From contig NZ_CAPS01000106.1 of assembly GCF_000333955.1 (NCBI RefSeq), positions 1 to 64,000 of the forward strand: a DNA stretch of 64,000 nt. The letters run 5' to 3'. The notes under the pieces are model-generated. The model was given only the letters and a program-made list of their open reading frames with translations, was not told the DNA's origin and searched no databases. The position numbers were made by a program, and so were the translations under genes. This stretch comes from Rhodococcus sp. AW25M09. Its GTDB lineage: Bacteria > Actinomycetota > Actinomycetes > Mycobacteriales > Mycobacteriaceae. This document shows, piece by piece, positions 36,300 through 41,124 of this stretch; the stretch's first letter is position 1, and every line of letters starts with the position of its first letter.

Positions 36300-37343
36300 T
36301 TGACGTCGAACAACAACAACGACGTCGACGGCTGGTGGTCCGGTCTGCCCCTGAAACGAGTGGTCCGAGTGCACGGGGCCACAGCGCGCGAGCTCGCCGA
36401 TTCCGTGAACCCCCTGCCGACCGATGCGCCATCGCTCGTTTTCTTCACGATCGATCCCCCGTCTGCGACACGGACCGGCGACCTCGTCGAAGCGATGGTC
36501 ACCGAACTGGAGAACGCGGCAGTGGACTCGGCTCCGCTCTGGCTCACCGAGTTCGACCACCACTCCGGCACGTCGACATTGGAGCGGCGCGCTGCGCGTA
36601 CGGCCGCTGTTCGGCTCGCCGCCGGTACCGCGCACTTCGGTCCGTATCTCGGTTCCCTCGCCGATGCGGCCGTCGCGCAGCGTTCTCCGCGCCGAGCCGC
36701 CTTCACCCTCGAAACCCGGGCCGCAGGGTCGGCTCGGGTCCTGGCCACAGCGCAGCGTCGAACCACGACTGCGCTGGTGTTGGTCGTACCCGCGGGGGTC
36801 GACGCCGCAGTGGCCGGGACGGCCGCGGAATGGCTGTGCAGCCATGCCCAGATGGCGGTGTGGCCGACGGGAGACGGGGCGTCGAACATGGACAGGTTTC
36901 CCTCGGTGTCGGTGCGCGCACCTGCTGTACCCGCCGGCGTCGACACCGTTCTCGACCGGTTTCGGCCGCTGAGTTATCCGCCGATCGCCGGACACCCGCA
37001 CCCTGCCAGTGAACCGGAGAAGCGGCTGTACCGAGCACTGGACCTGCACGAGTGGGCTGCCGGGCGAGAGCACAATCGATCGATCCGTCTCGGCGAGCTC
37101 AGCCGACCGTTCACTGTCGACGTACTGTGGCGCACCGAGAGAGTCGTCGTGGAGATCGATGGCAACGAGCACCGCGCCGCCGAACGTTTCGCCGAGGACC
37201 ACGTTCGTGACAACCAACTGCAGACCCGGGGCTACATGGTGTTGCGGTTCACCAACGCTCAGGTGATGGACGACCCGCACCGTGCTGTCGCTACCATCCG
37301 CGATGCAGTATCGAGAAGACGATCGAAGGGGGATCCTCGATGA
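36300..37343 (+). CDS. Protein with C-terminal Vsr/DUF559-type nuclease domain
   Basis: The first ~235 of 347 residues match no family I know: mixed alpha/beta with GWWSGLPLKRVVRVHGATAR and a central TTTALVLVVPAGVDAAVA. The last ~110 residues carry a PD-(D/E)XK-like nuclease core: Glu in ASEPEKRLYRAL, Asp in FTVDVLWRTE, the E-x-D pair in VVVEIDGNEH, and the VRDNQLQTRGYMVLRFTNAQ helix-strand of the DUF559/Vsr group. I choose TTG 36300 because GAGGCGGGG precedes it and no better start exists. The gene overlaps the next by 4 bases (ATGA), and that one overlaps the ATPase gene, so all three form one operon. A DNA-cleaving role is inferred from the motif. Confidence 0.75.
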   Translation: MTSNNNNDVDGWWSGLPLKRVVRVHGATARELADSVNPLPTDAPSLVFFTIDPPSATRTGDLVEAMVTELENAAVDSAPLWLTEFDHHSGTSTLERRAARTAAVRLAAGTAHFGPYLGSLADAAVAQRSPRRAAFTLETRAAGSARVLATAQRRTTTALVLVVPAGVDAAVAGTAAEWLCSHAQMAVWPTGDGASNMDRFPSVSVRAPAVPAGVDTVLDRFRPLSYPPIAGHPHPASEPEKRLYRALDLHEWAAGREHNRSIRLGELSRPFTVDVLWRTERVVVEIDGNEHRAAERFAEDHVRDNQLQTRGYMVLRFTNAQVMDDPHRAVATIRDAVSRRRSKGDPR

Positions 37344-37984
37344 GTACCGAAGACCTGAACGGGACCGAGGCAGCTGTACTGCTGGTTCTGATGGCGGAGG
37401 CAAGTCCGGTCAAGAATTCCGAACTCAAGACCATGGGACCCGAACTGCCGAAGCCATCTCGCGACAAGTTGAAGAACTCCGGTCTGATCGAGGTGAATTC
37501 CTCGGTGCGTCCGATGACCCTGGAACTGACCGACAAGGGGTGGCGCACCTGCGGTGAACTCATCGGCGGTGAACCACCTGCTCGGTCCACCGGAGCGGGT
37601 AAGGCACTGTTCACCGTGTTGGCCGGGTTGCGCCGGTGGTTCGATCGCACCGACAGTCGTCCGGCGGATCTGTTCTCGCCGCGGGGGGACGAGCCTGCAA
37701 CAGCGGAAATGACAGAGAAGTCCGTCGACGTCGAGGCCGACATTCGCGCGGCCTACGCGCGGATCGCACGCGAACCCGGCAGCACCGTTCGGCTTTCTCG
37801 TCTGCGAAACGAGTTGCGCGACATATCGAGAAGCGATCTCGACGATGCACTCGCGCGCCTGCGACGCGCCGACGACGTCTCGCTGATACCGGAAGAAAAT
37901 CAGAAGACGCTGACCGACGAGGAACGCGCTGCGGCCGTCGTCGTCGGGAATCAGCAGAACCACCTTCTCTCGATCGAATCATGA
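37340..37984 (+). CDS. Winged-helix-like protein of unknown function
   Basis: This 214-residue protein looks like two small DNA-binding-type helical domains joined by a linker. The N-terminal part (AAVLLVLMAEASPVKNSELK, GLIEVNSSVRPMTLELTDKG) has the helix-turn-strand rhythm of a winged helix with a beta-wing. The C-terminal part (RIAREPGSTVRLSRLRNELR, SRSDLDDALARLRRADDVSL) looks like a second winged helix. There is no signal or membrane segment. It is translationally coupled on both sides, between the nuclease-like and ATPase genes, and probably acts as their regulator or DNA adaptor. No family name can be given. Confidence 0.7.
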   Translation: MSTEDLNGTEAAVLLVLMAEASPVKNSELKTMGPELPKPSRDKLKNSGLIEVNSSVRPMTLELTDKGWRTCGELIGGEPPARSTGAGKALFTVLAGLRRWFDRTDSRPADLFSPRGDEPATAEMTEKSVDVEADIRAAYARIAREPGSTVRLSRLRNELRDISRSDLDDALARLRRADDVSLIPEENQKTLTDEERAAAVVVGNQQNHLLSIES

Positions 37985-40900: not shown

Positions 40901-41124
40901 AGTTCTACGGACTGTTGAACAGCCCGTCGCAGGTCGAAGCAGCCAAGGAGATGGCGCGCGTGAAGGGCGGTTCGGTGCCCGATGTCGGGCGACTGCCCGC
41001 CGGTCAGTTCTATGCCGCTGTGGAGGGCGCGGAGTTCCGTCGTACGGCCACTCCCCTGTGCCTGTCCTACCACCCGAAGAGTCCGCCTACCGAGGAAGAG
41101 GTCATCGCGTTGGCTCAGCTGTGA
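37981..41124 (+). CDS. Large two-P-loop ATPase with C-terminal HerA/FtsK-like domain
   Basis: The 1047-residue protein has two NTPase modules. The first is AAA-like with Walker A GPAGSGKTHLL (residues 73-83) and Walker B TILAIDQIDTL (near 247), then a helical region. The second, from ~640, is HerA/DUF87-like: Walker A AGSGSGKTVLL (near 670), Walker B GGLFVMDEAQNFAP (near 915), then VFATQAPKGLHNRIAGNAST with a likely Arg finger. HerA hexamers pump DNA and usually work with nucleases. Here the gene overlaps the winged-helix gene (ATGATG) behind a nuclease-like gene. It resembles HerA-nuclease defence systems, but the N-terminal AAA module in the same chain is unusual. Start at 37981; 38002 is an alternative. 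Confidence 0.82.
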   Translation: MMGVESTMTDNEQIHALESVRLSWAPTPDDVWRSQSNVHVPGMHERVFLEVMNAYDDADTSEDASPLGVVVRGPAGSGKTHLLGQVREEVQQKGGYFFLIRLLDAAGFWRSTLMGMLDDLMRPSGRGSDSQLALLLRRLCEIGDISDDERAQIMGENMIDSETLDAFVTAVYKVHPRHRRTSQHTLRALVLSIAPDSAVQDLGDAYLQSIDDVDPEEFSAWGIRRAELGHQGIAENISRLLAITGPTILAIDQIDTLVAQSRTGSDQEFADAQEDKVVEQLAHGLMSLRETLPRTASVLSALSSAWELIAARGVAPMRDRFRVTQPLKPIPSSDIGRLLLGRRLAACFLDAGFTPPHPTWPVAPEAFEQAPDFTPRQLLIAVDRHIRHCLDTGVASELESFTDRSGPADAQDLPKARVDELDILDDRYRQLREQVDLSVPLRPDSEDSIVPALLSAGLTAWIHEHQSSDDSLAQDPPPSGKPALHARLRHTVDTDTDDEEHWCFRAVTSGNARAALARVERAVTTAGLRADMPKRRLILIRNDPWPNGAKTEQTIAALRRAGGIVMPLGDEDRRALAALSILLAENSPALTSWLLARKPAHDIELFGAVLPAVSVVDDDTALIEPETTIAAAAPTASRRPAIVVGAELSTGADVAVPLEALRKHTAIFAGSGSGKTVLLRRLVEECALQGVSAIVLDVNNDLARLGTAWPEDERTWPPGDEAKATAYLRDTDVVVWTPRKSAGRPLSFQPLPDFVSVLGDADEFDASVESALASLEPAAGVLGTSQKAKHGRAVLKSALDLFGRRPQGGDLADFIDLLEEFPDDVSEMRDGVRIAAGLAENLKAAAANDPMFAGAGTPVDPAVLLTPAAGKKARVSVINLAGLTTDEQKQSFVNQLQMGLFAWIKKNPAGDRPLGGLFVMDEAQNFAPSDRTTAATHSTLALASQARKYGLGLVFATQAPKGLHNRIAGNASTQFYGLLNSPSQVEAAKEMARVKGGSVPDVGRLPAGQFYAAVEGAEFRRTATPLCLSYHPKSPPTEEEVIALAQL

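Follow-up and report, generated by a model that had tools for sequence, protein, structure and literature searches.

What is the function of a three-gene operon that sits among ribosomal protein genes in Rhodococcus sp. AW25M09 and encodes a nuclease, a small probable winged-helix protein and a double ATPase, here termed NUC, WH and ATP? The operon lies in a stretch of 64,000 nucleotides (positions 1 to 64,000 of contig NZ_CAPS01000106.1, assembly GCF_000333955.1; hereafter the window). A preliminary description of this DNA had recognized the three genes and assigned them to no named system. We present evidence that WH and ATP form a co-inherited pair, that the nuclease is an exchangeable effector and that the locus turns over within the genus. 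The reading that we favor, as probable though well short of certain, is that its products make up a HerA/FtsK capture-type machine for defence, directed at DNA.

Domain architecture of the operon

The three reading frames are as initially described, and the junctions between NUC and WH and between WH and ATP are both ATGA overlaps. The genes and their domains are:

36300..37343, + strand: gene 1, NUC, 347 residues from a TTG start; N-terminal degenerate NTPase-like domain (probable) and C-terminal DUF559/Vsr nuclease
36984..37325, + strand: nuclease domain of NUC, residues 229-342, with invariant E240, D274, E285, D287 and H291
37340..37984, + strand: gene 2, WH, 214 residues, with two probable winged helices
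37340..37567, + strand: first winged helix of WH, residues 1-76; weak MarR-type match (ZitR, E 0.0042)
37691..37978, + strand: second domain of WH (wH2), residues 118-213, also present in methylase-helicase giants of plasmids and in the tape-measure protein of one phage
37981..41124, + strand: gene 3, ATP, 1047 residues from the first ATG at 37981; AAA, middle domain and HerA
38113..39156, + strand: AAA module of ATP, residues 45-392; Walker A GPAGSGKT at 73-80, Walker B ending in D252-Q253-I254-D255
39232..39807, + strand: middle domain of ATP, residues 418-609; helix-strand-strand-helix-strand pattern
39889..41100, + strand: HerA motor of ATP, residues 637-1040; Walker A at 669-676, Walker B D921-E922, R947

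The Vsr/DUF559-type nuclease initially assigned to the C-terminus of gene 1 is borne out both by a Pfam match to DUF559 (PF04480) at residues 239-336 (E 1.9e-13; score 50.6 bits, where the curated cut-off is 20.6) and by a predicted Vsr-like fold with a conserved acidic active site. The catalytic residues are intact in all 96 NUC rows (66 distinct nuclease domains), and judged from these residues NUC is a complete nuclease of this type. Other libraries gave a DUF559 match below threshold only (NCBIfam) and a single match of unknown function (PHROGs, E 2e-5). The N-terminal domain, previously left without an assignment, is predicted to adopt an NTPase-like fold that lacks Walker A, and is probably a degenerate version of the P-loop NTPase fold. 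This assignment draws on middling VIA-align scores of structural matches, as a Foldseek search with the NUC model returned no match at E <= 0.001; a profile of the domain run against solved structures yielded nothing convincing (best E 0.11). A common origin of the NUC and ATP domains was considered and rejected upon a negative profile-profile comparison (probability 0.2%).

WH has no match in Pfam, PADLOC or PHROGs. An alignment of 34 WH sequences shows two conserved blocks, which we interpret as two probable winged helices; the MarR-type match in the first, obtained with a WH profile against solved structures, is kept as a weak lead. The gene 2 product is accordingly a putative DNA-binding protein, as suggested earlier. 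Most matches of the profile search were calmodulins (best E 0.0007), which we judged to be chance hits to a very redundant family.

In ATP, Pfam matches to AAA_16 (residues 62-189, E 2.7e-9) and DUF87/HerA (residues 649-894, E 5.7e-10) concur with structure prediction in placing an AAA module and a HerA module in one chain, as had been proposed. The HerA fold possesses Walker A, the Walker B DE, an arginine finger and a Gln sensor, and its catalytic residues are intact in 105/105 ATP rows. PHROGs returned HerA/terminase/Zot-like entries, and NCBIfam a HerA match below threshold only. The AAA module retains K79, T80, D252, Q253 and D255 in 105/105 distinct ATP rows; the Walker B position that usually carries Glu is Gln in every one of these sequences. 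A profile of residues 1-633, through which membership in the Orc/CDC6 group was compared, gave only weak AAA matches (best E 0.015). The secondary-structure pattern of the middle domain suggests that it is possibly an inactive restriction endonuclease fold.

Co-inheritance of WH and ATP and exchange of the nuclease

ATP is present in 36 of the 37 genomes of the window's genus, in 70/251 genomes of its family (9 of 31 genera, in a sample for which the best few candidates were scored) and in 31/296 genomes of its class. Comparison by hand of the lists for the 251 genomes shows that WH accompanies ATP in 69 of the 70 genomes and NUC in 54, and that every genome with NUC is also ATP-positive; the sole ATP genome without WH (G045) has a broken ATP. 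Likewise, among the named loci, which are the best 79 of at least 573 confirmed stretches, WH occurs in all 79 and a full NUC in 41. The tight coupling of the genes recurs in relatives: with script-chosen start codons, NUC and WH in 25 of 27 pairs are separated by -19 to +7 bases (by 59 and 720 in the remaining two), and WH and ATP in 34 of 37 by -31 to +29 (by 119, 152 and 152 in the remaining three). Both ATP (dN/dS 0.04-0.12, 14 relatives) and NUC (0.14-0.26, 13 relatives) are under purifying selection; locus L115 (NUC dN/dS 0.63) was excluded, as its sole NUC belongs to another allele.

The position of NUC can be taken by other genes. In genus g22, PDC-M02B stands directly before WH at all three loci retrieved (L078, L079 and L081; E 2.1e-20, 6.2e-32 and 1.9e-56), and is preceded by PDC-M02A, a DUF4365 protein, at two of them (E 4.5e-59 and 2.7e-55), while NUC was found in none of the four g22 genomes searched. 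PDC-M02A and PDC-M02B are PADLOC candidates for phage defence. Given the placement of this pair, WH and ATP may be unrecorded parts of some PDC-M02 loci. In eight genomes (G086, G130, G250, G265, G178, G087, G143 and G175) WH-ATP occurs without an adjacent NUC, and just short DUF559-region matches are found elsewhere. The nuclease is thus an exchangeable effector, represented by PDC-M02A/B in one genus and by none in other lineages. Among the Mycolicibacterium loci, L116, L128 and L131 have a gene resembling a macrodomain protein (by eye) directly after WH-ATP, near position 11100.

Genomic location and allelic turnover

In the window the operon occupies a slot between the spc and S10 operons, the ribosomal genes of which carry names that we presume from recognizing their translations by eye. 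The remaining features of the slot are:

35693..36061, - strand: rplN (by eye), which heads the spc operon and is transcribed divergently from NUC-WH-ATP; left border of the slot
41228..45851: further slot genes, namely an MscS-type channel, a PRC-barrel gene (another is apparent by eye only), a TerD-AIM24 protein and a glycosyltransferase
46873-47682, - strand: rpsC (by eye), S10 operon, beyond the slot genes

Using rplN and rpsC as queries for the slot in relatives, we found the operon between them in many genomes of the genus and at other places in others. A second site is common to six loci in six genomes (L048, L056, L062, L110, L111 and L112), where the frame before the operon and the one after it, scored by short peptide strings, are in 6/6 cases what we take to be DinB-like and SIMPL-like, respectively. 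In G017 the first slot is empty, with a gap of 1182 bases between rplN and rpsC that holds only ribosomal genes (by eye), and a copy lies elsewhere. G006 is the one genome of the 37 with no ATP copy at E <= 1e-20. Broken copies occur in G031, G034 and G045: G034 has a first-slot copy devoid of NUC and of about 107 ATP residues together with a full copy elsewhere, and G031 has fragments, in part due to contig ends, plus one full copy. G033 (L060/L115, 610-9576) carries tandem operon copies of different alleles, of which the second lacks NUC and has a mosaic WH, whose first and second domains are 53% and 88% identical to those of the window, respectively.

Within the genus, alleles that occupy this single slot show as much as 48% divergence in ATP, whereas rplB is at least 96% identical. 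A case in point is G009, in which the dS of ATP is 1.27 as against 0.57-0.82 in 11 close relatives, while rplB (0.09; 0.05-0.09 in the close relatives and 0.14 in L115) and TerD (0.87; 0.71-0.99) have normal values. As ATP alone among the three is elevated, G009 likely contains an imported ATP, plausibly through allele replacement. The use of several sites, the divergence among alleles, the broken or tandem copies and the empty slot together indicate a locus in turnover instead of one fixed for housekeeping; even so, almost all genomes in the genus retain a copy. The accessory nature of the slot, as originally proposed, is therefore upheld by gain, loss and an empty site in relatives, and conservation at one fixed site without gain or loss, which would have favored a housekeeping role, is not what is seen; the presence of the operon in almost all genomes is nevertheless nearer to a core trait than had been expected. 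The same slot in G027 (L176) has no operon and holds an AbiEi-type regulator-like gene (by eye; 12098-13030, - strand).

Sharing of the second winged helix with mobile elements

A profile of wH2 run against the 37 genomes at E <= 1e-6 gave 50 matches, 41 in the operon and nine in giant frames of 1586-2352 residues from nine genomes, which carry it in their N-terminal region. At this threshold wH2 is confined within the genus to the operon and to methylase-helicase giants of plasmid-like elements. The window's own genome encodes one of them (contig G000:C33; L180:2988-9962, - strand), a 2325-residue frame with wH2, helicase domains and, by eye, methylase-like motifs, which adjoins a TraG/VirD4-type gene and so marks a conjugative-type element in this genome; TraG/VirD4-type genes lie near the giant on all three elements whose neighbors were read. 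Methylase-helicase "polyvalent" proteins related to DarB have been described as invasion proteins that travel with invading DNA, and the portion of that source used here mentions the winged helix-turn-helix (wHTH) for a different ATPase family only (PMC5512222).

Matches to the core of the giant occur in 1292 plasmid records, and in 637 of these they extend over at least 80%. A single tblastn query with wH2 retrieved 10 plasmid records, of which three contain giants (two from Rhodococcus and one from Cryobacterium) with cores 86-91% identical to the query, the next cores being at most 54% identical. Since the six giants examined in detail (L180-L185), all of which hold wH2, were found through this domain, the informative sample consists of seven relatives (R. 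erythropolis, Dietzia, Gordonia, R. opacus, Mycolicibacterium, Arthrobacter and R. ruber) chosen out of 60 that were listed: wH2 was found in 0/7 of these within the core and 2.5 kb on each side, a span that cuts the protein N-termini in R. opacus and R. ruber.

A wH2-like domain is also present near the N-terminus of the tape-measure protein of Gordonia phage Mollymur (gene 29, L186; 47.7% identity over 65 residues, E 4e-7; a single phage with two records), and small plasmid proteins carry the domain as well. It is therefore a wider module, and its sharing is not proof of mimicry. It is a doubtful proposition that mobile elements have appropriated the adaptor domain of the machine in order to counter it, so that a HerA defence with an exchangeable nuclease is met by domain mimicry. 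Under it, the wH2 of the giant could occupy either the docking site of WH on the AAA-HerA ring or the DNA site of WH before the nuclease is recruited, and such a decoy could act early because polyvalent proteins enter with the invading DNA.

ATP itself was found in no phage record at E <= 1e-5 and in three plasmid records, one of which is an 11.85 Mb chromosome-sized record filed among plasmids (NZ_LT559118.1). An ATP relative outside actinobacteria (38% identity, 92% coverage) lies at 737838-741038 of NZ_AP014705.1, a 1.57 Mb Methylobacterium plasmid record.

Comparison with known systems

A motor of the HerA type with a partner effector is reportedly an established anti-phage arrangement, going by the titles of solved complexes. 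The closest precedent is provided by the HerA-FtsK capture systems, which unite HerA and wHTH parts with an Orc/CDC6-type AAA+ ATPase and with two restriction endonucleases (REases), one inactive and one active, either within a single chain or spread over several, and are proposed to capture and degrade invader DNA (PMC10853773). The operon resembles them in bringing together, in one neighborhood, a HerA/FtsK motor, an active REase, an AAA+ ATPase and a wHTH protein; the combination of HerA/FtsK, active REase and wHTH in one operon is present here, with the wHTH recognized by weak matches and "active" judged from conserved residues. It differs in that its REase is of the DUF559/Vsr type and fused to a probably dead NTPase-like domain, and in the invariant Gln of its AAA Walker B, while Orc/CDC6 membership and the inactive REase in the middle domain are candidate assignments. 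The terms "DUF559" and "Vsr" have 0 matches in the main text of PMC10853773. The initial impression that no named system fits thus needs to be amended by this precedent, although PADLOC gives the operon no name.

Compared to HerA-NurA, SIR2-HerA and HerA-DUF4297, the motor chain has additional AAA and middle domains and the partner is a DUF559 nuclease with a constant WH; NUC and WH have no Pfam match to NurA, SIR2 or DUF4297. DndH of the DndFGH system has about 1700 residues and eight domains, as against the 1047 residues of ATP and its separate REase; the DndH model gives its best match over 874-959, and no DndF was recognized in the operon. The mad8 model of MADS matches the HerA domain of ATP and that domain alone (E 2e-18), NUC and WH match no mad model, and no methylase was found among the four other slot genes scanned. 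The PDC-M02A/B proteins share with NUC a place upstream of the same WH-ATP pair, but the window's operon uses a DUF559 protein in their stead and its products have no PDC-M02 match. In a search of titles and abstract openings, outside which lay subscription journals and supplements, we found no description of the operon, although one paper contains the terms DUF559 and HerA, each of them once. Nor did the texts consulted mention a partner of the DUF559 type, the probably dead NTPase-like domain, the Gln that is invariant in the AAA module, the exchange for PDC-M02 or the sharing of wH2. We conclude that the operon is most likely a new variant of a described kind of HerA machine.

Proposed function and alternative explanations

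The domains and folds, intact catalytic residues, co-occurrence of the genes, replacement of NUC by the PDC-M02 pair, gain and loss, purifying selection and the occurrence of wH2 in invaders jointly support a role in defence. In the mechanism that we envisage, ATP would form a ring, the C-terminal HerA domain of which pumps double-stranded DNA. The N-terminal AAA ring would bind ATP with probably slow or no hydrolysis, owing to its Walker B Gln, and serve both as a collar set by the nucleotide and as a platform for docking. WH would bind DNA and load or license the ring on incoming phage or plasmid DNA, and NUC might dock through its dead NTPase-like domain and cut the DNA fed to it by HerA.

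Several observations weigh against this proposal. A full NUC is lacking in 38 of the 79 named loci, where WH-ATP persists under purifying selection: in seven nuclease-less pairs the dN/dS of ATP is 0.08-0.17 (one pair over 394 residues only), with 0.08 and 0.29 in two comparison pairs that have NUC. The motor pair may therefore have a job independent of the nuclease. The presence in 36 of 37 genomes is high for an accessory defence system. Against PADLOC, NUC and WH have no match at E <= 1 and ATP matches by its HerA part only; the neighborhoods outside the S10/spc slot are mostly ordinary genes by eye, and PADLOC, applied to the neighbors of two loci outside genus g22, detected a restriction-type methylase at one (L169). 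Finally, the AAA and middle-domain assignments rely on weak matches, and the predicted ATP structure has a pTM of 0.54. At L169, from Paractinoplanes, WH-ATP is flanked by a type IIG/DISARM-like methylase and a WD40 protein (12026-14650 and 2598-6644, both - strand).

The near-universal presence in the genus and the survival of WH-ATP without NUC in several lineages make chromosome maintenance the main rival. WH-ATP would then be a translocase for DNA-end processing or for segregation, functionally equivalent to HerA-NurA or FtsK and acting on breaks or termini of the host chromosome, with NUC as an optional resection nuclease; the strong purifying selection on ATP and the appearance of HerA-NurA among its top fold matches are in keeping with this. 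We consider it unlikely, given the minority of family and class genomes that carry ATP, the several sites, diverged alleles, broken copies and empty slot, and the PDC-M02 effectors in one genus.

An alternative to which we give still less credence is conjugative-plasmid exclusion, in which the machine would attack conjugatively transferred DNA or plasmids in replication, and the methylase-helicase proteins that bear wH2 would be the response of the plasmids. This is a narrower form of the defence reading. In its favor are the share of genus wH2 matches that fall in giants, the nearby TraG/VirD4-type genes and the negative result for wH2 in the seven sampled relatives, but the phage tape-measure and small plasmid proteins show that wH2 extends beyond this conflict. 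A selfish or addiction module that maintains itself would fit the near-universal presence at differing sites and the tandem and broken copies, but is very improbable, as no recombinase, toxin or antitoxin was recognized among the three genes.

Implications

If the operon is indeed a defence machine, it would represent an actinobacterial HerA machine with a constant WH-ATP pair and a nuclease that is swapped or dropped, and PADLOC's PDC-M02 pair would thereby be linked to a motor. Its AAA ring, with Gln naturally in place of the Walker B Glu, would constitute a built-in switch. Such a system would also open to testing the question of how a HerA machine that lacks a modification partner distinguishes foreign from host DNA, and the shared wH2 singles out WH as the component with which invaders may interact.

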